Shown: in pieces, positions 773 to 21,669 of the stretch
Layout: each line of letters begins with the position of its first letter
Numbering within the stretch: position 1 is the stretch's first letter
NCBI RefSeq assembly: GCF_000427405.1
Contig: NZ_KE386491.1
Span: forward strand, 4,751,302-4,815,301
Length of the DNA: 64,000 nt
DNA from: Flectobacillus major DSM 103
Lineage (GTDB): Bacteria > Bacteroidota > Bacteroidia > Cytophagales > Spirosomataceae
Direction of reading: 5' to 3'
Translations under genes and position numbers: made by a program
Notes under the pieces: model-generated
Databases searched by the model: none
Told to the model about the DNA's origin: nothing
The model's input: the letters and a program-made list of their open reading frames with translations, nothing else

Positions 773-3622
773 TTATTTTTGATATTTTTTGAGCAAAGTA
801 CTAAACTCTGGTAAAGCCCGAATATTATCTAAATCTGTATCTTCTTTGATATAGGCAAAATCGTTATAGCCTTTTTGTAAAGCTTGCTCAAGATAAGATA
901 AAGCTTCTTTGGGCTGGTTTTGTAGGGAGTGTAGGCGAGATAGGTTGTAGTAGGCGTTAGTAATATTAGGATTTAGGGCTATTACTTTTTTATAACAAGC
1001 GATAGCATTTGTATTTTGGTGAATTATTGAACAACGAGATCCTTTATTATAGAAAGCCTCTATGTAATCGTTTTTATAATAAATTGCTTTGTCGTAAGCA
1101 TCAATAGCGTCTTGGTGTTTCCCCATTTGACCTAATGTACAGCCTTTATTATAATAGATAAGAGCATTTTCTGGATTTAATGAAATAGCTACATTGTAAA
1201 ACTCAATGGCTTTATCGTAGTTCTTCAAATCCGCTAATACATTAGCTTTATTAATATAAGCATCTATATTATACCTATCAAATTCTATTCCTTTACTGTA
1301 ATACTCTGATGCCTTATTATAATTACCTAACTCATACATAAGTAATCCCTTATTTACATTAAAAACTGAGTTCATGGGTTCTATCTCAAGTGCCCTATCA
1401 TAATAAATTAAAGCTTTTGAATACTTTTTTTGATTTTTCAGAATATTCCCCGCTGTAGAATAGGCATCAGCAAAATCATCTTTCAACATAATTACCTTAT
1501 TTAATGATTTTAATGCCTCTTCTTCTTCACCTAATTTTTTCAAAAGTAAACCTTTGTTATAATACGAATAAGGATATTCAGGTTTTATTGTAATAACAGT
1601 ATCATAGCATACTAATGCTTTGTCATTCTGAGAGAATAGTTCAAATAATATAGCCTTACCCATGTAAGCTTCCACAAAATCCTTTTTTATAAAAATAGCC
1701 TTATTATACAACTCCATTGCGTGATTGTATTTCTGTAATGTGGTAAAGACCTCAGCTTTGTTATAGTATGCAAGATATTCGTCGGGCATCTGCTCGATAG
1801 CAATATTATAACATTTAATAGCATCCTCATAAGAGCCTAATTTCTCTAAACAGACACCTTTATTTGTATATAATTGCGGAATTGTGTTATCTATAGAAAT
1901 AGCTAAGTCATAATAATCTAAGGCTTCCCTAAATCTACCTAGTTCTTTTAAAATTCGAGCTTTATTATAAAAAAGAGTAAAGGTTCTCTCTTTTAAAGAG
2001 ATTGCTTTATCAACATACTCAATAGCTTCCATATTCTTTCCTAAATTTGAAAGAGCTACAGCCTTATTATTCAATAAAAAAATCCATTCTGGAGACAATT
2101 TTAATGCTCTGTCAAAAATGTTAAGTGCTTCTTTATATTTTTGCTGCTTATTATATATAAACCCTAATTCATTATAACTATATATAGCTCGGTTGTTGTG
2201 AAGAATAGATTCTTGCATTTTAGCTGTTGCAAATAGTAAATCGTTTCGGTAAATTCTACTTAAAAGTCCTTCAAAATAGTTGATTTCTGCTAATAAATTA
2301 TTATACCGATAATCACGGACTCCAAATAAAACTAAACTGTAATTTAGACTTTGAATAATTTGCTCAATTTTTTCCTTACTTATGGGTTTATTATCATTCG
2401 CTAAATATTTTGATAAATGTTCATAACTATCATCAACCAACCCTGCAATTAGTTCCAGTTTGATAAGATTTTTTGCTGTTTGGTCAGTGGTTGTCTTAGC
2501 TAATAACTCATAGTCTTGGATGGCTTTATCCATAAAACCTAAGTCCAAATTATTCACAAAACGAGTATAAGCAGTTTGGCATTCTTGGCTCAGTTGCTTT
2601 ATAAAATGTTCACCAAAGCTTTTTGGATAAACCTTTCCTTCCCTTACCACAATGGGTTCATTCTTGATAAGTTCATTCAAGGTTACACTATCTACCACTG
2701 CCAGTACAGTGTTGTCTTGTCCCTCTTTTTCAGGTGTCTGTACATTCATTAACAGGTCTTTAGCAATCCAATCTGTTATATAATGTTTTATTTCACGAAC
2801 CATCACAATACCATCAGGTTTATCATTTCTGTATTCTTGACCATCCGCTAATCCCATTAAGCCTCTTAAAAGATAATAGGTAAATATTCCATTTTCCCAT
2901 TTCTTCCCTTCATAAGCACTCTGATTGTCGAGACAAGCAACTATTTTTGTGATATTATTATACCTCCATTTCCTGTATAATTCTTCTTTCAAGATTGAGC
3001 TTTGAGTACGACTTATCAATGCTCCACTTCTGCAAGCATCTATATATAAATTAACCGATACTTTTTTCTTTAAAAAAGCAACATCCTCTGCATAATCCTT
3101 CAAAAAAGGCAATGCCAAAAATCTATCTTTATAGCCTGGGCTTGTATCGTGCAAACATAAAATACCATGCGTAGCAGTGTCTTGTTTATAGACGATTTTA
3201 TCCTCGTAGCCATGTGAGGAAAAAAAGAGTATAACCTTAATTTGATATTTGCTTGTGTCAATTTTATTAGATAAAGCACTTGCCTTCAACCATTCTAATT
3301 GGGTCGTAACCCTTCCAAAAGTTGCGTCTTCATTTGTCAGTATTACAATATTACTATCAGGCACACTGCCTCCAGCCTTTAATCGTAAATAGGCTTTAAA
3401 ATCACGAGCATCTTTATCTGCATATTTCAATCCCTCAATCTCTCTGTATTTGCTCACACCAACAATAAAGGCTAAGGTATATACCTGTTTAGGCTTAGGG
3501 GCTGGGATAATAACAGGATCTACCAAAGGAGACTTTGCCTTAACCTGAGCCTCTGTTTTCCAACCCATCAAAAAATTAAAAAAGATAAGACCTACTAACG
3601 AAAGAAGTGATTGAGTTTTCAT
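773..3622 (-). CDS. Secreted caspase-like (peptidase C14) protein with TPR array
   Basis: A 949-residue protein counted from ATG at 3622; the frame also extends to a TTG at 3640, but ATG sits directly before a signal peptide (MKTQSLLSLVGLIFFNFLMG, cleavage near TEAQ). The caspase-fold domain spans about residues 45-300, with catalytic His137 in SSHGY and Cys197 in DACRSG, and an early VGVSKYREI strand typical of bacterial C14 peptidases. From about residue 460 to the end there are roughly 13 tetratricopeptide repeats, usually a protein-binding scaffold. The signal peptide suggests envelope export, unlike the cytoplasmic caspases of defence systems. The substrate is unknown. It lies next to the truncated gene at the left edge and close to other putative cysteine-peptidase-fold genes. 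Confidence 0.9.
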   Translation of the reverse strand: MKTQSLLSLVGLIFFNFLMGWKTEAQVKAKSPLVDPVIIPAPKPKQVYTLAFIVGVSKYREIEGLKYADKDARDFKAYLRLKAGGSVPDSNIVILTNEDATFGRVTTQLEWLKASALSNKIDTSKYQIKVILFFSSHGYEDKIVYKQDTATHGILCLHDTSPGYKDRFLALPFLKDYAEDVAFLKKKVSVNLYIDACRSGALISRTQSSILKEELYRKWRYNNITKIVACLDNQSAYEGKKWENGIFTYYLLRGLMGLADGQEYRNDKPDGIVMVREIKHYITDWIAKDLLMNVQTPEKEGQDNTVLAVVDSVTLNELIKNEPIVVREGKVYPKSFGEHFIKQLSQECQTAYTRFVNNLDLGFMDKAIQDYELLAKTTTDQTAKNLIKLELIAGLVDDSYEHLSKYLANDNKPISKEKIEQIIQSLNYSLVLFGVRDYRYNNLLAEINYFEGLLSRIYRNDLLFATAKMQESILHNNRAIYSYNELGFIYNKQQKYKEALNIFDRALKLSPEWIFLLNNKAVALSNLGKNMEAIEYVDKAISLKERTFTLFYNKARILKELGRFREALDYYDLAISIDNTIPQLYTNKGVCLEKLGSYEDAIKCYNIAIEQMPDEYLAYYNKAEVFTTLQKYNHAMELYNKAIFIKKDFVEAYMGKAILFELFSQNDKALVCYDTVITIKPEYPYSYYNKGLLLKKLGEEEEALKSLNKVIMLKDDFADAYSTAGNILKNQKKYSKALIYYDRALEIEPMNSVFNVNKGLLMYELGNYNKASEYYSKGIEFDRYNIDAYINKANVLADLKNYDKAIEFYNVAISLNPENALIYYNKGCTLGQMGKHQDAIDAYDKAIYYKNDYIEAFYNKGSRCSIIHQNTNAIACYKKVIALNPNITNAYYNLSRLHSLQNQPKEALSYLEQALQKGYNDFAYIKEDTDLDNIRALPEFSTLLKKYQK

Positions 3623-3767
3623 GGTGTGATTTATGGCCAAAAGATTTGTAAATAAAAATAAGAATTTTTCAATAGAAACTCACAGAGCTTCTATAAAAAG
3701 CTATTTAAAGTTGAAGCCTCCAGAAGGGGTTTGTAATTCATAAACTTTAATAAAAACTTTTATTACC

Positions 3768-4286
3768 ATGAAAAAATTAGCAGTAACCTTAATCATCTTT
3801 ATCTCTGCTTTAATCGCAGGACAAGTCCATGCTCAAGCCTTTCAGCAGGGCGATAAATTATTAAATCTGGGTCTAGGACTCAATTCTTATTATAGCGGAG
3901 GTGTTCCCTTTGGTGCTTCCTTTGAAGTAGGTATTGATGATGACCTTAGTGTTGGTGCGAATGTAGATTATCTCTCAACATCAAATTATGGTTATCGATT
4001 TACTGCCCTATATTTTGGAGGAAGAGGTTCATATCACTTCAACAGGATATTGAACATCAAAGATGAAAAGTTCGACCTATACGCAGGAGCAGGCTTAGGA
4101 TACAGAAGTTTTAGTTGGGCAGACTCTTATGCAGGAATATCAATAGATGCCTATGGGAGTGGCATATACTTGGGAGCACATTTAGGGGCTAAATACTATT
4201 TTTCGGACACAACAGGGGCATTCGCTGAATTGGGGGCTGTTGGTTCAACCAATGCAAGAATTGGGGTAGGGTTTAAATTAAAGTAG
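3768..4286 (+). CDS. Outer-membrane beta-barrel protein (intact paralogue)
   Basis: 172 residues: a signal peptide (MKKLAVTLIIFISALIAGQ, cleavage near VHAQA), then alternating glycine- and aromatic-rich strands and a C-terminal strand ending GVGFKLK, as in small Bacteroidota porin-like barrels (OmpW / PF13568 type). It is the intact twin of the broken gene at 19174-19691; the proteins are nearly identical over long stretches such as DLSVGANVDYLSTSNYGYRF. A hairpin terminator follows the stop. The exact role (pore, adhesin or structural) cannot be told from sequence. Confidence 0.85.
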   Translation: MKKLAVTLIIFISALIAGQVHAQAFQQGDKLLNLGLGLNSYYSGGVPFGASFEVGIDDDLSVGANVDYLSTSNYGYRFTALYFGGRGSYHFNRILNIKDEKFDLYAGAGLGYRSFSWADSYAGISIDAYGSGIYLGAHLGAKYYFSDTTGAFAELGAVGSTNARIGVGFKLK

Positions 4287-8652: not shown

Positions 8653-9978
8653 ATGGAATACAGGAAATATAGCCTTAGCTTTTCTAAATGCTTTGTATGT
8701 TTATTTCTATTACTAAATTGTGTTGACACAAGAGCACAACTCCCCAAATTATTAAAAGATGCTTCAGAAACCTTTAAAAATGGGGCAGAGGCTATAAAAA
8801 GTTTGGGAGGGCTCATTGATGCAACAAAACGTACTAGCGCTGAATTTAACAAATCCGTTAAAGTTGTAAAAGATAACTCGTTTCAATCTTCAGTTTCTGA
8901 AAGTCAACAGACAAAACCTAAATTTAAAAAAGGAGTCTTCACAAATTTTAAATGGGAGCCGGTTGCATATTTTGAAAATCAACTTTTTCCATCCGTTATT
9001 ATTAGTATGGCAACATATAAAGGAGAGGTAGACGATCCAATGATGAATTCTATTAAAAGTAGTTCATTAGGTTTTAGATTCAATAGTGATAAATCCTTTA
9101 TTCCGGTTAGATGGGAAATAGAAAGTGTTGATAAACAGTACTTCGATAAGGTGAGTGGTGATTTTATGTTTCAACAAGCACGGCAAGAAATATATTTTAT
9201 GCCTTCTGTTCCATGGAATGTCTCCACCCTCGCTAAACAATTGAGCAGCACACCAATCAATGTAGTTTTTAGGATATTTGATAGTGATGGCAATAAAGAA
9301 GAAAAATCTGTCCCTCTTTTTATGAGAAGTATAAATGACTGTTTATTTAGCTATAAAGATAAAAAACTTGACTTCCTTTTTACCTCGTATATACAAGAGC
9401 AACATCCAGAGGTAGACAAAATCCTAAAAGAAGCATTGAATACTAAAATGATTACTTCAGTGTCTGGCTATCAAGGAGATGAGTTAAATACGCTTCACCA
9501 AGTTGCCGCAGTATGGAAAGTCCTTCATGATAGAGGGTTTCAATATAGCAGTACTACAGAAACATCAACAAATAGCACAATTGATTTTCAAAGTCAACAG
9601 GTTAGAACCTTCGATAATGCTTTAAAAACACAACAGGCAAACTGTGTGGATGGTACTGTTGTTTTCGCTTCAATTTTGAGAGCAATGGGGATTTCTACTT
9701 TAATGGTATTGACTCATGATCATTGCTTTTTAGGTTTTTATACTAGCAACAGGAAAGATAGAAAACGCCTATATTTAGAAACAACCATGCTTTCGTCATC
9801 AGATATAATAGACAAAGCTAAAACCCCTTCTGAGAAAAAGAATGCTTATTTTAACCAGTTTTTGTACGCACTTAATTACGCAACAAAGAAAGAGTATCCA
9901 GAATATAAAGCCGCAAATGATTTGATTGAAGTAGACGTAAACTACTACAGAAATTTTGTAAGGCCTTTACCTTTTTAG
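8653..9978 (+). CDS. Secreted protein with transglutaminase-like domain
   Basis: 441 residues. The N-terminal hydrophobic stretch (CFVCLFLLLNCVDTRAQ) looks like a signal peptide, possibly read as a lipobox. The C-terminal third has a transglutaminase-like cysteine-peptidase fold: Cys331 in NCVDGTVVFASILRAMGI, His357 in HDHCFLGFY, and an acidic Glu376 in LETTM, the order Cys-His-acid of the family. In bacterial secreted proteins such domains usually act as peptidases or amidases rather than crosslinkers. The middle region is beta-rich and unassigned. It has no obvious operon partner. Confidence 0.8.
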   Translation: MEYRKYSLSFSKCFVCLFLLLNCVDTRAQLPKLLKDASETFKNGAEAIKSLGGLIDATKRTSAEFNKSVKVVKDNSFQSSVSESQQTKPKFKKGVFTNFKWEPVAYFENQLFPSVIISMATYKGEVDDPMMNSIKSSSLGFRFNSDKSFIPVRWEIESVDKQYFDKVSGDFMFQQARQEIYFMPSVPWNVSTLAKQLSSTPINVVFRIFDSDGNKEEKSVPLFMRSINDCLFSYKDKKLDFLFTSYIQEQHPEVDKILKEALNTKMITSVSGYQGDELNTLHQVAAVWKVLHDRGFQYSSTTETSTNSTIDFQSQQVRTFDNALKTQQANCVDGTVVFASILRAMGISTLMVLTHDHCFLGFYTSNRKDRKRLYLETTMLSSSDIIDKAKTPSEKKNAYFNQFLYALNYATKKEYPEYKAANDLIEVDVNYYRNFVRPLPF

Positions 9979-10769: not shown

Positions 10770-11348
10770 ATGGCAAATACCAAATTGAATAACTATTCCG
10801 CTCAAAATGGAGGAACAATTCCCATTCAAAATAGTGAAGGAGGAAATATGAAAAGTGGTGGCACAATTATCGCTGGTCACGAGGATGATCATAAATCGGA
10901 AAATCCAGAAGGTGTCAATACATTAGTAGGTTTCCTTGTATCTTACTCTAAGACAGAACTTGGGGAGTACTGGGTACTAAGAGAAGGTAATAACTTTCTT
11001 GGAAAAGAAAACGATTGTAACATAAAACTTAACGAAGGTACTGTCTCAAGTAAACATGCTACACTCAATATTACTCGAAATGAGGACGAAAATAAATTTG
11101 ATGTGGTGCTTATTGACACAGCTTCAGCCAATGGTACATTTTTGAATGGCAAGAAAATATTAGCCTATAATGGTATTATCGCTAAAAATAATGATAAGTT
11201 AAGAATAGGCAATTATGAATTGAAGCTTATGATAGTTGATAAATACGCCGAAAATCTAAAGAAGAGCGATATTTTTAGAGGAATTGTTGATTATGATTAT
11301 TCTTCAAGAGAGTTCAATTCAGACGGGACAAAACCTATGAATTACTAA
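10770..11348 (+). CDS. Soluble FHA-domain protein
   Basis: 192 residues. The FHA domain (about residues 70-150) shows FLGKENDCNI, then SSKHA and NGTFLNG, the phosphothreonine-binding set (Ser, His, Asn). The N-terminal tail is low-complexity and carries two matching GGTI motifs (Thr16 and Thr32), similar in position to the phosphorylated tails of GarA/OdhI, FHA regulators switched by Ser/Thr kinases. No membrane segment is present. The kinase gene starts 27 bp after the stop, so it is probably the first gene of the phosphosignalling operon 10770-17756. A role as kinase substrate and adaptor is inferred. Confidence 0.88.
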   Translation: MANTKLNNYSAQNGGTIPIQNSEGGNMKSGGTIIAGHEDDHKSENPEGVNTLVGFLVSYSKTELGEYWVLREGNNFLGKENDCNIKLNEGTVSSKHATLNITRNEDENKFDVVLIDTASANGTFLNGKKILAYNGIIAKNNDKLRIGNYELKLMIVDKYAENLKKSDIFRGIVDYDYSSREFNSDGTKPMNY

Positions 11349-11374
11349 GCCCTTTCACTAAAAATCTCTTGTAT

Positions 11375-13627
11375 ATGTCGTATATCAAACTCAAAGGCGA
11401 TAATAATACCTATATATTCAACCCCAAAGATGTCAATAGCTTTTTAGGCGCTGGGGGTATGGGACGTGTTTTCAGTGGAAAAAAAGTAAACACGAATAAC
11501 GAGAATGAAGAGGTAAATGTAGCTATTAAGGTGTTGTTCAGAGACCTTACCGAAAATGTTAATAATGTAGAGAGGGTAAAGCGAGCTTCAGAAATTAAAA
11601 TAAAACATGATAATTTAATTGAAATGCTTGATTTTGTTGAACAAGACGGCATTTATCACGATGTGAGCGTTTTTGTTCCAGGTGAAAATTTAAGCGATAA
11701 AATAGCTTCTAATAAAATCCAAAACAAAGTATTTTCCTACGATGAAGCCAAACCAATTATAAATGGGGTATTGAATGGTTTAGAGGTTTTACATCAAAAT
11801 GGAATAATCCACCGAGATATTGATCCTTCTAATATTCGTATATGTAGTGATGGTAGTGTAAAACTGATGGATTATGGAGTCGTTAGAATAACAGGGGGAA
11901 AAACAAAATCTTTAACAGGAGTAGGTACGTTGATTGGTAAACCGAATTATTCACCTCCCGAACAAATCAAAGGTGAGAATGATAAAATAAAAGAAACTAC
12001 CGATTTATATGCTTTAGGTATCACTATTTACGAAATGCTTACAGGGAATCCACCCTTTGAAAAGGGAAATGAATTTGATACAATGCAAGCCCAAGTAAGT
12101 AGCCCATTACCTAAAAATAGTATTTTGAGTGACGCAATCTATGATTTTTTAGATAAAGCGACTGCAAAAGAACCAATAAATCGTTTCCAAAGTGTAGCAG
12201 AGTTTCGTAACGCTTTAAACAATCCCCAAGCAATAGATTGGTGGAGGAAAAAGCAGGTTCAAATTATGGGACTTTGTGGTATTGTTGTAACCTTGGGAGT
12301 GATTGGTTTCTATCTAAATCATAATCACAAAATCACTCATCATCAGGAAAACTACCAAAAAGCAAGTGATTTTTTAGAAATTGCCCATTACGATAGTGCA
12401 ACAGTTTATTTTGATAAAGCTCTCGAATACATTGATGCTGACTCTACTAAACAAAAATCTGCAATGCTACATGAATTAGTTCCTGCTATGTCTGCGTTTT
12501 ACAATGCAAAATATAAAGAAGCATTCTCAAAACTACAAAAAGCAAGTGATTTAGGCTCTGGGGATGCTGATTACTATTTAGGAGAATTAACGTATAATGG
12601 CTTAGGGACTGTAAAAGACTATAACAAAGGCTGGGAATATACCAATAAAGCTATTAAAAAAGGTTTTAAAATGGCGTATTGGAGAATTGCAAATGCCTAT
12701 CAAACAGGTAAAGGTGTATTAAAGGACCCAGAAAAAGCTGACAGATATTATTTGGAGGCAATTGAAGCCATGAAAAAATTAGCAGAATCAGGAGATCCAG
12801 AAGCCTTAGGAAACCTAGGCGCAATGTATTCTAGTGGGGATGGTGTTTCTAAAAATAATAAAATAGCATTTGAGTATTACCTGAAATCCGCGAACAAAGA
12901 ATATGCCTTCATCCAATCAAATCTAGCACAAATGTATTTTTATGGTAATGGGACAGACATTAATTTTGAAGAAGCTGCAAAATGGTATAAAAAGTCGGCA
13001 GAAAAGGGGCATCCAACGGCACAATTAGCATTAGGAAACATGTATTTAGAAGGTATTGGAATGCCCCAAGATATAATCAAAGGGTTAGAATTAATAAACA
13101 GTGCCGCCAAACAAAATTATTCTAGTGCTTTATCAAGATTAGGCTATTTATACTACATGGGGAAATATGTGGCCACCGACTATGAACGCTCGTTTCAATA
13201 TACAAAGAAAGCAGTTGACTATGACAATGATAACATAACAGCCATCGAAAACTTAGCTTTCGATTATAAAGAAGGGACTGGCGTTGAGAAAGATTATGCT
13301 GAGGCAAAAAAATACTATTTAAAAGCCATTAAGCAAGATAGTTCTACAGCTGGAAAAAATTACCTTAGAATAGCACTTTTATATCTTAAAGGTGGATATA
13401 AATTGAAAAGCAGCGAATCTGAGTTTATAATATTTTGTGAGTTATCCGAACAACATGGGAATGTCGATGCCACTAAACTTTTAGGGATATACTATAACGA
13501 AAATGGTGTAAAATACTATAATAGTAGCAGTTACATTATGGCGAGAGATTATTTCGAAAAAGCAATTGCAAAAGGGAATGTCCAAGCAAAGAATAACCTT
13601 AGAATTATGAACTTAAACGAACGCTAA
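11375..13627 (+). CDS. Membrane Ser/Thr protein kinase with Sel1 repeats
   Basis: 750 residues from ATG 11375; a TTG two codons earlier is possible. The kinase domain (1-285) has a glycine loop LGAGGMGRVF, Lys52 in VAIKV, an APE-like SPPEQIKGE, and the catalytic loop HRDIDPSN: Asp150 replaces the usual Lys, and the Mg loop is DYG (166-168) rather than DFG. A membrane helix follows (about 295-313, MGLCGIVVTLGVIGFYL), then about ten Sel1-type repeats (YYLGELTYNGLGTVKDYNKG and similar) predicted outside the cytoplasm. It may be a weak kinase or pseudokinase. It is a tandem paralogue of the next gene, one base apart. Confidence 0.92.
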   Translation: MSYIKLKGDNNTYIFNPKDVNSFLGAGGMGRVFSGKKVNTNNENEEVNVAIKVLFRDLTENVNNVERVKRASEIKIKHDNLIEMLDFVEQDGIYHDVSVFVPGENLSDKIASNKIQNKVFSYDEAKPIINGVLNGLEVLHQNGIIHRDIDPSNIRICSDGSVKLMDYGVVRITGGKTKSLTGVGTLIGKPNYSPPEQIKGENDKIKETTDLYALGITIYEMLTGNPPFEKGNEFDTMQAQVSSPLPKNSILSDAIYDFLDKATAKEPINRFQSVAEFRNALNNPQAIDWWRKKQVQIMGLCGIVVTLGVIGFYLNHNHKITHHQENYQKASDFLEIAHYDSATVYFDKALEYIDADSTKQKSAMLHELVPAMSAFYNAKYKEAFSKLQKASDLGSGDADYYLGELTYNGLGTVKDYNKGWEYTNKAIKKGFKMAYWRIANAYQTGKGVLKDPEKADRYYLEAIEAMKKLAESGDPEALGNLGAMYSSGDGVSKNNKIAFEYYLKSANKEYAFIQSNLAQMYFYGNGTDINFEEAAKWYKKSAEKGHPTAQLALGNMYLEGIGMPQDIIKGLELINSAAKQNYSSALSRLGYLYYMGKYVATDYERSFQYTKKAVDYDNDNITAIENLAFDYKEGTGVEKDYAEAKKYYLKAIKQDSSTAGKNYLRIALLYLKGGYKLKSSESEFIIFCELSEQHGNVDATKLLGIYYNENGVKYYNSSSYIMARDYFEKAIAKGNVQAKNNLRIMNLNER

Positions 13628-13628
13628 T

Positions 13629-14513
13629 ATGCCTGAAATATATTTAAAAGGCCGAAACGCTTCTTACAATTTCAACCCATTTCCTCCCAATAGTCCTATT
13701 GGACAAGGTGGGATGGGTAAGGTTTATGCAGGTAAACATTCAGATGGCACACCCGTAGCTATCAAAGTTCTTTTTGCTGAGTTGGCTACCGAAAGTCAGT
13801 TTGTTGAACGATTTGTAAAAGAAGCTCTAATTCAAACAAATCTCAACCATCCTAATATTATTAAAAGTTATGATTTTGTTGTTGCTAATGGTAAATACCA
13901 CATCATCAGTCGGTTAATTAATGGGAGTTCGATAGAACAATACCTGAAAAGTAATCAAGAAATAGAAACCAAAATTAAACTATTTGGCGAGGTGCTTGAT
14001 GCACTAGATTTTTTACATTCACAAAATCCTAAAATTATACATCGTGATATAAAACCAGCAAACATCATGGTAGAGAACGGTAAAGCCATCGTAATGGATT
14101 TAGGGGTAGCCAAAGTTACAGGAGGCAAGCGTCAAACCAAAGTGGGTCTACTTATGGGTACTCCTCAATACTCTCCTCCAGAACAAATAAGGGGGGAAAG
14201 CCACAACATCAATCCTACTACTGATATTTACGCTACGGGTATTACTTTCTACGAGCTTTTGGCGGGTCATCCACCTTTTGACGGAACAAACGAGTATTCG
14301 ATTATGGAAATGCAGGTAAAGAACACTATTCCTCTACATCGTTCGATACCCCTCAACATATACAATGTTCTTAGAAAAGCAACCGCAAAACAGCAAAACC
14401 AACGTTACCAAAGTGCTTTGGAGTTTAAGAATGCCCTATTAAAGGCTATTGATCAAGAAGAAGATTGGTGGGGTAAATTAAAATCTATTTTGGTTAAAAA
14501 TATTACTCAATGA
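13629..14513 (+). CDS. Soluble Ser/Thr protein kinase
   Basis: 294 residues, a complete Hanks-type kinase: IGQGGMGKVY glycine loop, VAIKVL lysine, canonical HRDIKPAN catalytic loop, a DLG magnesium loop, GTPQYSPPEQ activation segment and DIYATGITFYELLAG. No membrane helix; it ends shortly after the domain with EEDWWGKLK, mirroring the DWWRKK before the membrane helix of the upstream kinase and supporting duplication. The ATGA overlap with the next gene indicates translational coupling to the phosphatase. It is likely the catalytically competent kinase of the operon. Confidence 0.93.
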   Translation: MPEIYLKGRNASYNFNPFPPNSPIGQGGMGKVYAGKHSDGTPVAIKVLFAELATESQFVERFVKEALIQTNLNHPNIIKSYDFVVANGKYHIISRLINGSSIEQYLKSNQEIETKIKLFGEVLDALDFLHSQNPKIIHRDIKPANIMVENGKAIVMDLGVAKVTGGKRQTKVGLLMGTPQYSPPEQIRGESHNINPTTDIYATGITFYELLAGHPPFDGTNEYSIMEMQVKNTIPLHRSIPLNIYNVLRKATAKQQNQRYQSALEFKNALLKAIDQEEDWWGKLKSILVKNITQ

Positions 14514-15739
14514 TACAAAATAATCAATTCAAAACGGTTTCTAAATCGGCCATAGGTGGCAGAAGGGAAAACCAAGATAGTGAGGGAAGCCTAATGACAA
14601 AATTAGGATTCTTATGTGTCGTATGCGATGGTATGGGAGGAGCAGCAGGAGGAAAAACAGCTTCGGCAATGGCTGTAAATATTATATTACAGGAAGTTGC
14701 CAATACCACAATATTACATCCAGGACAAGCTTTGTTGACAGCAATCAACAAAGCTAATCATGAAATATTTAGTCGTGGTCGCCAACAGACCGAACTACGT
14801 GGTATGGGAACAACTGTGACCGCACTAATTCTAAATAATGATAAAGCAACTATCGCCCACGCAGGCGATAGTCGTATATATTTATTGCGTGATGGAGAGA
14901 AAGTGTTTAGGACAAATGACCACTCGAAAGTATTTGAACTGGTAAAACGAGGAATTTTGACAGAAGAACAAGCGAGGCTATCAGAAGAATCAAATGTAAT
15001 ACAAAGGGCGTTAGGAATAGCTCCTGATATTGAAGTTGAGATAAACGATAATATCCCTTTCTTAAAAAACGACCTATTCATGCTTTGTACGGATGGTGTT
15101 TGTGGAGCAGTATCCGAAGAAAACCTCTTACAAATGCTTACAAAAGACAAAGATATTAGAGCCTTAGCAGAAAAAATAATTACACAAATTGATACACTTG
15201 GCAATAGACAAGGCGGTGGACATGACAACCTAACTGTTTCTTTTGTTCAACCATTAGTCAACTCAAAATTAGAAGTTAAAATTGATATGAAAACCAAACT
15301 TATTATATACGCACTCAGTACAGTCCTCGCCTTGTTTGCAGGTTTAGCAGGTTATCTGTTTTTCTCCAGAAACCCCCAAACAGATACTTCAAAGTTTGAA
15401 ACTGAGATAGCCACATTAAAAACAGATACAACTCAATTAAGAGCAGTCTTACGAAAATTTATACAAGAACTGGATTCATTGAAATCGAAAAAAAATAACA
15501 GCTCTCACGCGTCCATCACATCCACAGAGTCGATTTCTAGGGCAGGGAATTCATTGCCTCCTTCCAATCCCACGATTCAGAAAGATCTTCCTTCTACGGA
15601 TAAAAAGAAGAAAGATGTTAGACAAACTGTGCCAAATAATGAAAATGCTGACGGTCGAGATACAAAATTAGATAACAATATTGCTCCTAAAGACTCCAGT
15701 GAGCGGCAAAAAAAAAAGGATTTGTCTTCTACACAGTAA
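14510..15739 (+). CDS. Membrane PP2C-type Ser/Thr phosphatase
   Basis: 409 residues. The PP2C domain (1-250) has the metal-binding motifs RRENQDSEG, VCDGMGGAAGG, AHAGDSRIYLLRDG, CTDGV and GGGHDNLTVS. A membrane helix follows (about 264-284, LIIYALSTVLALFAGLAGYLFF), then a coiled segment and a Ser/Thr/Lys-rich linker. The frame stops at 15739, seven codons after an A10 run; in the -1 frame the sequence continues as a LysM domain to 15894. The start codon overlaps the kinase stop (ATGA). It probably reverses phosphorylation by the two kinases. Confidence 0.93.
   Translation: MIQNNQFKTVSKSAIGGRRENQDSEGSLMTKLGFLCVVCDGMGGAAGGKTASAMAVNIILQEVANTTILHPGQALLTAINKANHEIFSRGRQQTELRGMGTTVTALILNNDKATIAHAGDSRIYLLRDGEKVFRTNDHSKVFELVKRGILTEEQARLSEESNVIQRALGIAPDIEVEINDNIPFLKNDLFMLCTDGVCGAVSEENLLQMLTKDKDIRALAEKIITQIDTLGNRQGGGHDNLTVSFVQPLVNSKLEVKIDMKTKLIIYALSTVLALFAGLAGYLFFSRNPQTDTSKFETEIATLKTDTTQLRAVLRKFIQELDSLKSKKNNSSHASITSTESISRAGNSLPPSNPTIQKDLPSTDKKKKDVRQTVPNNENADGRDTKLDNNIAPKDSSERQKKKDLSSTQ
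15708..15718 (+). promoter_or_regulatory. A10 slippery tract, possible -1 frameshift site
   Basis: Ten adenines followed by G contain the heptamer A AAA AAG in the phosphatase reading frame, the same slippery sequence used in E. coli dnaX. A -1 slip here joins residue 403 to 58 further residues ending at 15892-15894 (461 in total) that form a LysM domain. A weak stem (AGATCT at 15739-15744 and 15757-15762) lies about 20 nt downstream, further than the usual stimulator. Transcript slippage, phase variation, a fixed mutation or a read error are alternatives. Confidence 0.5.
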
Positions 15740-15894
15740 GATCTCTTGATACAGGAAGATCTATTTTGAGGCATTTTAATATTAGGGACTCAGATGAGAA
15801 TTTACGAGAATTGGTAGTCTTAAACAAAAAAATTGATTGGGAAAACCTTAAAATAGGTAAGAAGTACAAAATACAACTTCCCAAAAAAAAATAA
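15718..15894 (+). other. LysM domain coding sequence in -1 frame of PP2C gene
   Basis: The frame starting at 15718 has no start codon of its own but reads as a LysM peptidoglycan-binding module: FYTVRSLDTGRSILRHFNI, then ENLRELVVLNKKI and NLKIGKKYKIQLP, matching the family order YxVkxGDTlxxIAxxf, LxxlNxxi and LkvGqkLxi. The stop is at 15892-15894. It continues the C-terminal linker of the phosphatase, so the ancestral or frameshifted protein would be PP2C-membrane helix-LysM. Confidence 0.7.
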
Positions 15895-16340
15895 AGGCTA
15901 TTAAACAGCTAGTTGAATACGCCGATAGAGTATTTGTATACACCGTGCAAAGATAAAGTTTGGGATTAAACAGCGATAAAGTGAGACTATAAGATATACT
16001 ATTTAAAACAGATAGTTCTATTTAATGAACTTTGAAAAATCATCCTACTCGATACATCACACTTAAGCTAGTTTCATTCAAATGTAACTATTGAAATCTT
16101 TGGAAACTTAACTTTGACCAATAGGAGCGCTAGTCAAACGCAAGTTATCTCTACTCATCTGAGGTAATAATCCTTGTGTTTTGTTACATTGGATTTGAAT
16201 GACCAAATAAGTTCATAAAAGTTTTACTCTTTTCTTTATGCTTTTATTGATTAATACTCATTTAACAAACCTATCATAGTTAGAAACCAAATTACTTAGG
16301 TCCGCGAGGAAGATTATTAACACTCAAAACGCATAATACA
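15895..16340. other. Intergenic region before FHA-protease gene
   Basis: 446 bp without an intact gene. Near 15930-15960 the sequence reads VFVYTVQR then a stop and SLGL, which looks like the start of a second, decayed LysM module similar to the one just upstream. The rest is featureless and probably contains the promoter of the next gene. Confidence 0.4.
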
Positions 16341-17756
16341 ATGATATTAATCACTATTGGACGTGGCTCAAATAATCAAATTATCATCAATAATGCTCAT
16401 GTAAGTGGTAACCATGCTGAATTAAGCATAGATGATTTTGGCAATATAACGTTAACCGACCGGAGTCAAAACGGTACTACTGTAAATGGACGTAATATAC
16501 ATAATACTTCAACTTCTGTTAAAAGAGGTGATAGAATTCTTTTTGCTAATATTATTCATCTAGATTGGAATCAGGTACCTATATCATTAGTCAATAATGG
16601 TAACTTTAAACATATAATTACCGTAGGAAAAAATACAGATAATATAATTCAAGTTTACAACGACAACATAAGCCGCTATCATGCCACCATCAAAATTGAC
16701 AAAAAAGGGAACGTTTTTATAAATGACCAAAGTAGCAATGGCACATTTGTAAACGGAAGCCGTGTCTCAAAATATACAGATTTTCCAGTTAAAAGAGGTG
16801 ATAAAGTAAGTTTCGCCAATGTTCAAGATTTAGACTGGAAGCAGATACCCAAATCCAGTATAAGCCCTATTTATTATATTTTACCAATTTGTCTTGCCAT
16901 ACTTTCAGGAGTAACCTACTATGAGTACTTTGTTAAAACCGATGTATCAAAAAAATATGAAAATAGTATCGGTCTAATTTATAATTCATACTATTTGGCT
17001 TATATTGATGACAAAGATACTTTGTATTATATTGGAGCTGATGATGTAGTGGATATGAAAAACAATCCTAAATCAAAAGAAAGCTTAAGGCCAATAGAAA
17101 TCACTGGGTCAGGCTTTTATGTTAGCGAAGATGGTAATATTATTACCAATAAGCATGTGGTATCGCCTTGGGATAGTGAGCTGGCAATTGATAAAGAAGA
17201 AATTGAAAAAAGAATAAATATTATCCGAGCGATGAAAGGTGAGGCTTCAAAAAACTCACATGTAGAGGGTGTAATTGTAAAACTAGGTATTTTCCCAAAT
17301 GGGTCCTCTCTTAATAAATCGGACCCTCTTAAAAATATGCTTCCCTGTAAACTGGTCAAATTAGCAAGTGAAAAAGAATTGGATTTGGCATTAATTCAGT
17401 TAGATACTAAAAAAACACCAAGTAATTGTACACCAGTAACAGACATTATTAAGGGAAAAGAGCAAATTTCATTGGATGATGAAGTTAGTATTTTTGGATA
17501 CCCTTTTGGTCTTGATCTTGCTCTCAAAAATAGCGAAAGTCGAATCAAAGCGTCTTTTGATCATGGAAAAATTAGTAAAATATCAGATAAATACGAAATA
17601 CAGTACAACGCTCCTTCATTCCATGGAGCGAGTGGCTCACCAGTATTTAATCAAAAAGGGCAGTTAATTGCAGTGAATTACGCAGGAATGGAGAAAGCTC
17701 AGGGTTATAACTTTGGGATTATTGCAACCCATATAAACAAGTTACTTGACTTCTAG
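16341..17756 (+). CDS. FHA-FHA-membrane-trypsin-like serine protease
   Basis: 471 residues. Two FHA domains (about 1-75 and 85-160) each show the signature: IGRGSNNQI, SGNHAE, NGTTVNG, and VGKNTDNI, SRYHAT, NGTFVNG. A membrane helix follows (about 173-192, IYYILPICLAILSGVTYYEY). The C-terminal domain is a trypsin/DegP-type protease with His272 in TNKHVV, Asp348 in ELDLALIQL and Ser431 in GASGSPVF; no PDZ domain is visible. The predicted layout is cytoplasmic phosphothreonine readers and an envelope protease. It ends the signalling block and is the likely effector of the kinase-phosphatase pair; that role is inferred. Confidence 0.92.
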   Translation: MILITIGRGSNNQIIINNAHVSGNHAELSIDDFGNITLTDRSQNGTTVNGRNIHNTSTSVKRGDRILFANIIHLDWNQVPISLVNNGNFKHIITVGKNTDNIIQVYNDNISRYHATIKIDKKGNVFINDQSSNGTFVNGSRVSKYTDFPVKRGDKVSFANVQDLDWKQIPKSSISPIYYILPICLAILSGVTYYEYFVKTDVSKKYENSIGLIYNSYYLAYIDDKDTLYYIGADDVVDMKNNPKSKESLRPIEITGSGFYVSEDGNIITNKHVVSPWDSELAIDKEEIEKRINIIRAMKGEASKNSHVEGVIVKLGIFPNGSSLNKSDPLKNMLPCKLVKLASEKELDLALIQLDTKKTPSNCTPVTDIIKGKEQISLDDEVSIFGYPFGLDLALKNSESRIKASFDHGKISKISDKYEIQYNAPSFHGASGSPVFNQKGQLIAVNYAGMEKAQGYNFGIIATHINKLLDF

Positions 17757-19173: not shown

Positions 19174-19691
19174 ATGAAAAGAATAACAGTACTAACGCTA
19201 GTCATTTTTTTTTCTGCTCTAATTACTGAGCAATCTTTCGGACAATCGTTTAAAAATGGCGAGAAATTATTGAACCTTGGATTAGGTCTCAATTCTTATT
19301 ATACTGGAGGTGTACCCATTGGTGCTTCTTTTGAAGTAGGTATCGACAAGGACCTGAGTGTGGGGGCAAATGTAGATTATCTCTCAACATCGAATTATGG
19401 ATATCGATTTACAGCCTTATATTTTGGAGGAAGAGGGTCAACTTCAACAGGGTTTTGAATATCAAAGATGAAAAGTTCGACCTTTATGGAGGTGCTGGTT
19501 TAGGATATAGAAGCTTTAGTTGGGCAGATTCCTATAATGGAATATCCATTGATTCTTATGGAAGTGGTATATACTTAGGAATACATTTGGGCGCTAAATA
19601 CTATTTTTCGGACACTGTAGGGGCATTTGCTGAAATTGGAGCTGTTGGTTCTACCAATGCAAGAATTGGGGTAGGGTTTAAATTAAAGTAA
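19174..19691 (+). pseudogene. Outer-membrane beta-barrel gene, frameshifted paralogue
   Basis: Aligned with the intact paralogue at 3768-4286, this copy lacks 4 bp: where the intact gene reads TTCATATCACTTCAAC this one reads GTCAACTTCAAC at about 19438. The first part (94 residues to the stop at 19458) keeps the signal peptide (MKRITVLTLVIFFSALIT) and three or four strands; the rest (from about 19455, NIKDEKFDLYGGAGLG to GVGFKLK) continues in another frame. Both halves are otherwise well preserved, so the damage is recent or a read error. A barrel cannot form from either piece alone. Confidence 0.85.
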
Positions 19692-21232: not shown

Positions 21233-21488
21233 GAATTTAAGTAGGACTTTTGGAGAAGGGTAAAATAAAGTTGAGAAATATTCATGTTTTAAGGAATATT
21301 AATCCTTCATGAGTATGTTGAATGAAATGCTATTTCTTTAATATTTTGTAATTCTATAGTCGATTATGTAGTCGAAACAGCGATCAAAGTCATTAAAAGT
21401 TTAAACTATGTTTAAACTGAAAATCATAGGATAAACCAATATAAACAAAAAAGTCTCATAATCTATTGACTATGAGACTTTTAATCGG

Positions 21489-21562
21489 CGGTCTGGACGG
21501 GACTCGAACCCGCGACCCCATGCGTGACAGGCATGTATTCTAACCAGCTGAACTACCAAACC
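21489..21562 (-). tRNA. tRNA-Asp (GTC)
   Basis: On the minus strand the cloverleaf is complete: the acceptor arms GGTTTGG and CCAGACC pair (one G-T), the D-arm is AGTTCAGCTGGTTAGA, the anticodon loop CTGTCAC gives GTC, and the T-arm is GCGGGTTCGAGTCCCGT. The discriminator is G, as expected for Asp; CCA is not encoded. It is 74 nt long. Its 3' end points toward the accessory island, the usual side for tRNA-integrating elements. Confidence 0.95.
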
Positions 21563-21647: not shown

Positions 21648-21669
21648 TGAAAAAAAAAATAAAAAAACG

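Follow-up and report, generated by a model that had tools for sequence, protein, structure and literature searches.

Five genes lying one after another on the forward strand at positions 10770-17756 of a 64,000-nucleotide stretch from Flectobacillus major DSM 103 (contig NZ_KE386491.1, positions 4,751,302 to 4,815,301; hereafter the window) encode a soluble FHA protein, two Ser/Thr kinases (a membrane-bound one with Sel1 repeats and a soluble one), a PP2C phosphatase and a protease in which two FHA domains precede a membrane helix and an HtrA-type serine protease domain. Our preferred reading, which the sequences make moderately probable, is that the five genes form one switch, in which the balance between kinases and phosphatase in the cytoplasm would control, via FHA binding, a predicted periplasmic protease. 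DegS is controlled through its periplasmic PDZ domain, and the known HtrA/DegS proteases take their cues from the periplasm; unlike DegS, the window protease would be controlled from inside the cell. If this is true, a conserved set that puts phospho-readers ahead of the membrane helix of such an enzyme, with its kinases and phosphatase encoded alongside, would allow a proteolytic command to pass outwards. More tentative is the fuller picture of an inside-out switch found across phyla, in which threonine phosphorylation read by FHA activates a DegS-like protease while the phosphatase comes in two forms made by slippage, one of them holding peptidoglycan; this we consider possible rather than probable.

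The soluble FHA protein (10770..11348, 192 amino acids; Pfam FHA 1.6e-13) is followed by the Sel1-repeat kinase (kinase 1, 11369..13627; Sel1 1.3e-46, Pkinase 7.6e-41), the soluble kinase (kinase 2, 13629..14513, 294 amino acids; Pkinase 1.2e-47), the PP2C phosphatase with its long polar linker (14510..15739; PP2C_2 1.4e-12) and the protease (16341..17756, 471 amino acids; FHA in two stretches 2.5e-30, Trypsin_2 1.1e-19), and the Pfam domain scores of the five exceed the cut-off. The first four genes overlap or lie at most 26 bases apart; the protease gene follows some 0.6 kb after the PP2C stop. The open reading frame (ORF) of kinase 1 opens at TTG 11369, ATG 11375 being the more likely start. 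Both kinases have the glycine loop, catalytic Lys, HRD and DxG, and the PP2C retains its usual motifs. One hydrophobic helix each is predicted in kinase 1 (residues 295-313, counted from ATG 11375), the PP2C (264-282) and the protease (174-192); the soluble FHA protein and kinase 2 have no such helix. An earlier note, made from the DNA letters of this stretch, had described the same five genes in this order on a single strand; that description is confirmed, and both Pfam and the helix predictions agree with its identification of each product. The clustering of such genes here exceeds chance: in the whole genome (6.2 Mb, 7 contigs), the cluster holds three of four FHA matches (which fall in three genes), two of five Pkinase matches (four over the cut-off) and one of three PP2C_2 matches. 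Scans for terminators did no better than shuffled sequence (5 versus 4.4), and those for promoters gave 44 versus 35.3.

Linkage between the FHA-bearing protease and the other genes was assessed in a profile search of genome contigs with an alignment of 43 proteases, for which the best 80 of 164 loci were kept and their ORFs scanned with our own hidden Markov models for FHA, kinase, PP2C and protease. The protease is fused to FHA in 54 of the 80 loci, namely, 31 from Bacteroidota, one from a Chlorobiaceae metagenome-assembled genome (MAG) and 22 from Gemmatimonadota. A kinase, a PP2C and another FHA gene lie within 6.5 kb in 31 of the 32 fused Bacteroidota/Chlorobiaceae loci; the exception, L078, has kinases in range and no PP2C or FHA there, with a PP2C farther off. 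Within the same distance, the 22 Gemmatimonadota loci have a PP2C in 20 cases, a kinase in 14 and all three in 13, and five of the nine loci lacking kinase plus PP2C (L110, L113, L118, L128 and L140) are cut by a contig end less than 7 kb away on the left side. Among the 26 loci scored as not fused, the set occurs once (L141, with FHA and protease on ORFs that overlap); this control is imperfect, as the sequence on one side falls short of 6.5 kb in 12 of the 26 and several phyla are mixed, and the 14 loci with full flanks again give L141 alone. Because the set accompanies 31 of 32 and 13 of 22 fused loci versus 1 of 26 non-fused ones, FHA fusion and kinase/phosphatase linkage go together. The earlier note had proposed looking for this synteny in other genomes and had counted its absence against the system; the outcome is strongly positive, and co-occurrence holds far beyond close relatives, the set being found in Gemmatimonadota and in a range of Bacteroidota, among them Bacteroidales named Prevotella, Alistipes, Bacteroides and Phocaeicola.

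Closer to home, the order FHA-kinase-kinase-PP2C-protease is shared by three relatives, G001, G008 and G036. Protease matches (E 1e-3; all genome counts include the genome of the window, G000) occur in 13 of 59 relatives, at full length only in G000, G001 and G008, that of G036 being cut by a contig end, and are absent from the three other genomes of the genus (G002-G004). Wider samples gave the protease in 4 of 390 genomes of the order (one without the FHA part), 2 of 395 of the class and 8 of 395 of the phylum (one without FHA), and a protein database gave 457 matches at E 1e-3 among 7996 candidates scored. The distribution is thus patchy, and the cluster lies on accessory DNA.

The protease combines two N-terminal FHA domains, one helix and a trypsin-family domain whose His-Asp-Ser triad (H272, D348, S431) is invariant in 43 of 43 homologues. 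Its protease domain models as HtrA/DegS without PDZ, and the best VIA matches of the model, which cover residues 193-471, are to DegS without PDZ. It has the HtrA-type fold and triad but not the C-terminal PDZ of DegS (none in a Pfam scan of the window protease), and it scores 30.2 bits against NCBIfam DegS, below the cut-off of 422.95. FHA1 starts the protein directly at the N terminus and carries the phospho-Thr residues of the domain (G-R, S-x-x-H, N-G), with Arg in 36, Ser in 42, His in 43 and Asn in 41 of the 43 homologues, so that by sequence it fits the signature of a phospho-Thr reader. A single helix is predicted in 117 of the 120 listed database homologues. In most of 13 FHA-less relatives inspected, the N terminus has a charged stretch and a helix, and four of the 13 (L104, L105, L106 and L111), judged by eye, resemble lipoproteins bearing a signal peptide; because these relatives look exported, the homologous protease domain should lie outside the inner membrane. 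A periplasmic location is accordingly predicted for the window protease domain, and the modeled HtrA/DegS-type fold fits a periplasmic enzyme. The earlier note had counted a cytoplasmic protease domain as refuting the system; the exported look of the relatives and the fold point the other way. In a tree of 47 protease domains, the window protein groups with those of G001 and G008 and, at less support (98/70), with that of a Saprospiraceae MAG, siding with FHA-fused proteins despite closer best segments among FHA-less ones; the tree neither shows nor excludes one origin of the FHA fusion. Those FHA-less relatives, from Flavobacterium and Chryseobacterium (L093, L094, L096-L100 and L102), are 41 to 46% identical to the window protease in the best segment, and most FHA-fused Bacteroidales proteases only 26 to 35%.

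A candidate link between kinases and protease is the soluble FHA protein, whose flexible N-terminal tail holds one T-x(1-2)-[PQEAH]-G motif (TIIAG). The tails of 18 FHA proteins selected from the cluster loci, all Bacteroidota, contain 28 such motifs, against a mean of 5.7 and a maximum of 15 in 1000 shuffles, a contrast inflated by the choice of the motif after these sequences had been viewed; at least one motif is present in 17 of the 18, the exception being L033. We propose that these motifs are target sites of the kinases. GarA and OdhI have a phosphorylatable N-terminal tail, which the motif-bearing tails of the cluster FHA proteins resemble. In the switch as we picture it, the kinases would phosphorylate threonine in this tail, as well as themselves; FHA1 of the protease would dock on the phospho-Thr; and docking would cluster the DegS-like domains and so switch proteolysis outside, until the PP2C resets it. 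That phosphorylation gates the protease is what we infer from this arrangement.

The phosphatase may itself come in two forms. The PP2C frame ends at 15739, just 3' of a run of ten adenines (A10) on its coding strand (15708..15717, +), which is a candidate slippage site. In the -1 frame, the nearest upstream stop is at 15700-15702, so that the A10 lies in the stretch between this stop and the PP2C stop (15703-15736), and a LysM-like domain is recognizable in that second frame (15703..15894, +), the arrangement expected of poly-A slippage. The 63 residues encoded there match the in-frame C-terminal tail of another PP2C, P0125, with 46% identity over 57 amino acids (BLASTP, E 7e-13), which bears out as real the LysM-like stretch that the earlier note had reported in the -1 frame. 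Further searching for in-frame tails of the P0125 type returned P0125 only. The same out-of-frame arrangement recurs at the same junction in G001 (A10) and G008 (A9); the LysM frame of G001 is 72% identical to the window copy and 40% to that of G008, which in turn matches P0125 at E 2e-12. Pfam LysM (cut-off, 20.9 bits) finds the G001 copy (E 0.0061) and the in-frame tails of P0134 (6e-4) and P0137 (4e-4), all under the cut-off, and gives no match for the copies of the window and G008 or for the in-frame P0125, P0127, P0128 and P0132. The G001 LysM frame was modeled as beta-alpha-alpha-beta (pLDDT 84); the solved structures closest to this model are for the most part LysM domains, at weak scores. 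A family search for the PP2C/LysM junction gave G000, G001, G008 and G036, and the closest further relative among the best 80 of 164 loci was L065 (51%); we saw no LysM frame in G036 or in L065, whose gene has a masked stretch.

Taken together, the offset at A9-A10 and the in-frame LysM tails elsewhere suggest slippage that makes two phosphatase forms. Alternatively, the -1-frame LysM may not be expressed, the domain having been lost by frameshift and its remnant decaying, a reading that we take seriously without thinking it the probable one. Several observations weigh on the side of decay and against slippage: differences between G000 and G001 in the LysM frame are spread evenly over codon positions (9, 10, 9), as under relaxed selection; the window copy has lost the KKGD-type canonical LysM start that G001 keeps; a second A-run (A9 at 15883, A8 in G001) lies inside the LysM frame near its end; and at least 40 open codons follow the stop in a shifted frame in 14 of 42 window ORFs, some of them real next genes. 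Since such open frames are common in the window, the openness of the LysM frame alone proves nothing. No stimulatory RNA fold for ribosomal frameshifting was found at the junction (z -0.03); this too is compatible with decay, and if the LysM is expressed, it leans toward slippage of RNA polymerase, as in tssM. Between G001 and G008, the differences at the three codon positions of this frame (35, 23, 39) give a weak signal of selection. What speaks against decay is that the same offset is kept in three genomes, where the diverged LysM copies still align to an in-frame tail. A further point is the make-up of related PP2Cs: among the 17 closest (P0121-P0137), eight end at most eight residues from a Lys-Lys pair (three of them read in the DNA, from the window, G001 and G008, the last as a near copy of P0133, and five as protein only), seven have by eye an in-frame LysM-like tail and two (P0126 and P0135) belong to neither type. 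None of the seven in-frame proteins has three Lys in a row within 25 residues before the LysM; were the A-run no more than phase-variable DNA, the in-frame PP2C genes would be expected to carry it as well. Finally, in window ORFs of at least 120 amino acids, the coding strand has only two A runs of nine or more, this one and another at 21650 that precedes the likely start of a DinB gene.

Under the slippage reading, the A-run would yield a short PP2C and one with LysM, the latter tethered to peptidoglycan, and the state of the wall could set where the phosphatase works. If this holds, the ratio of the two isoforms made by slippage would tie the off-switch to the wall. A precedent is tssM, where an A11 yields two forms of TssM with about 20-25% transcriptional frameshifting (PMC4256274). 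As here, the A-run stands just before a premature stop in the gene of an inner-membrane protein, and a second frame holds an additional domain; both forms are proven for tssM, whereas here the case concerns a phosphatase with LysM and is drawn from sequence. PMC3711429 has a frameshift cluster called Kinase/Phosphatase, with 105 genes in 23 genera and direction +1.

The interpretation in the earlier note, in which LysM and Sel1 would convey the state of the wall, is supported in part. As for the switch as a whole, a number of points weigh against it. The set is rare nearby (4 of 222 family genomes: G000, G001, G008 and G036), kinase 2 is split into two ORFs in G036, and a transposase-like ORF (by eye; L032 9227-9784) stands between PP2C and protease in G001, with none in the window. 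In four of the Gemmatimonadota loci (L112, L115, L127 and L135), the kinase or the PP2C is missing from the range, with some 10 kb of sequence available to either side. FHA2 has the usual phosphate-contacting Arg in just 4 of 43 homologues, and Lys replaces it both in FHA2 of the window protease and in the window's soluble FHA protein. The earlier note had also given kinase, phosphatase and protease a common layout, with the phospho-domain inside and an envelope domain outside: each does have one helix, and the positive-inside rule clearly orients the PP2C (4.6 versus 2.1 Lys plus Arg; 103 proteins against 8, with 8 ties), but it is silent for the protease helix (2.43 versus 2.42; 43 against 48 proteins, 26 ties).

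The weak FHA2 and the Lys of the soluble FHA would also suit a simpler arrangement, in which the FHA domains serve only to keep the protease within a membrane complex of kinases and phosphatase and the protease is constitutive or switched by periplasmic cues like DegS. DegS-type proteases are indeed switched from the periplasm, the window protease matches their fold, and an exported-looking family found 3' of the protease in 17 Bacteroidales loci (TonB_C in the member scanned) could supply the cue. We nevertheless judge this arrangement unlikely, as the window protease has no PDZ, FHA1 is canonical in 36 of 43 homologues and plain anchoring would have no need for an FHA fusion that tracks kinase/PP2C linkage. 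A domain common to that exported-looking neighbour and a neighbour in L030, suspected by eye, failed in BLASTP (E 1.4).

The genomic setting raises the question of defence. The cluster lies on variable DNA to the left of a tRNA-Asp (21487-21562), a site that is likely an integration hotspot of accessory DNA in the genus: in G003 the same flank contains genes of nSTAND, WD40 and (by eye) caspase-like type, and at L155 12501-18257 of that genome two tRNA-Asp flank a McrBC-like pair (by eye; AAA_5 match) where the window has one. This setting, kinase matches to the PADLOC models PD-T4-6/MAD6 and the existence of a kinase-kinase-phosphatase module (KKP) with antiphage activity (PMC11341870) might hint at an antiphage module, with infection sensed by the kinases and the protease acting as membrane effector, but this is quite improbable, given that the PADLOC matches fall in the kinase domain (best stretch in kinase 1, 21-287), that the defining features of KKP are absent, that none of 50,697 phage records matches the protease and that each of 15 PADLOC families matches one protein only among 105 neighbour proteins, in which WG-repeat and outer-membrane-barrel families lead. 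These 105 were hand-picked from 163 proteins, left from 191 after removal of four near-duplicate loci, and come from loci other than those of the window, G001, G008 and the Gemmatimonadota; they include WG repeats (7), outer-membrane barrels (4), phage-integrase families (3-4), TonB_C (2) and relaxases (2), and the census leans to envelope rather than defence. A WG-repeat-type family occurs in 10 Bacteroidales cluster loci. An origin from phages or plasmids was rejected, with no match among the phage records and two plasmid records that match the protease, one (Phocaeicola) over most of its length at 29%.

Among known systems, the mycobacterial FhaA/FhaB-PstP-PknA-PknB locus likewise groups FHA, two kinases and a PP2C around an envelope theme. 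The cluster differs from it in having no PASTA repeats and no RodA/PBP gene, and a protease instead. That M. tuberculosis has FHA, kinase and phosphatase genes clustered is stated in PMC1262709. As to the resemblance to PknB/Stp/GarA wiring seen in the earlier note, against NCBIfam PknB_PASTA_kin the two kinases score 180.8 and 226.4 bits (cut-off, 450; no PASTA by Pfam), and against Stp1_PP2C_phos the PP2C scores 199.3 (cut-off, 230), which makes it a close relative only. Type VI secretion systems have a threonine phosphorylation pathway of Fha, PpkA and PppA; control of such a system was rejected here, with no VipA/TssB (PF05591) in the genome and TagH scores of 26.4 and 43.3 against 120.25 bits. 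KKP, as defined in the available text of PMC11341870, has a PP2C first and then two kinases with C-terminal CSD and FHA domains, and no protease is named there; it shares two kinases and one PP2C with the window, where the order is FHA-kinase-kinase-PP2C and the kinases have neither CSD nor FHA. Compared with DegS/HtrA, the protease has the HtrA fold behind one N-terminal helix, adds two FHA domains before this helix and is without PDZ. The FHA-FHA-trypsin order itself was already listed by architecture in 2008, for the protein NP_811686.1 of Bacteroides thetaiotaomicron, which stands as a single protein in that source (PMC2605481), with no gene neighbourhood, topology or tested function named in its accessible part. 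Full-text literature searches, which mostly do not cover subscription papers, returned no paper that we recognized as describing a kinase/PP2C/FHA-protease cluster; the parts are of known kinds, and no description turned up of their combination, of how it extends over both Bacteroidota and Gemmatimonadota or of the split PP2C-LysM gene.

Elsewhere in the same genome, a second phospho-cluster (L030 2146-15546; C6:1486145-1499545) contains a PP2C, a kinase with a Sel1-like part, FHA, an Hsp70-like protein and two alanine/lysine-rich repeat proteins of 758 amino acids. Another locus (L031 5848-8364; C6:4707847-4710363) encodes a kinase-like domain fused to a reverse transcriptase (Pkinase 1.7e-10, RVT_1 4.6e-7), with a vWA-like ORF (by eye) on one side and, at some distance on the other, a PP2C and a PLD-like ORF. 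In the window, positions 773-3640 encode a caspase-domain and TPR protein with a signal-peptide-like N terminus (Peptidase_C14 3.7e-10), and 8653-9978 an exported-looking transglutaminase-like protein (Transglut_core 3e-4, just below the cut-off) that is conserved next to the G001 cluster as well. A pair of small proteins, similar to each other and both exported-looking, is encoded at 3768-4286 and 19174-19458, the second shortened to 94 amino acids, and a homologue of them is found at the right flank in G001 (L032 5687-6232).

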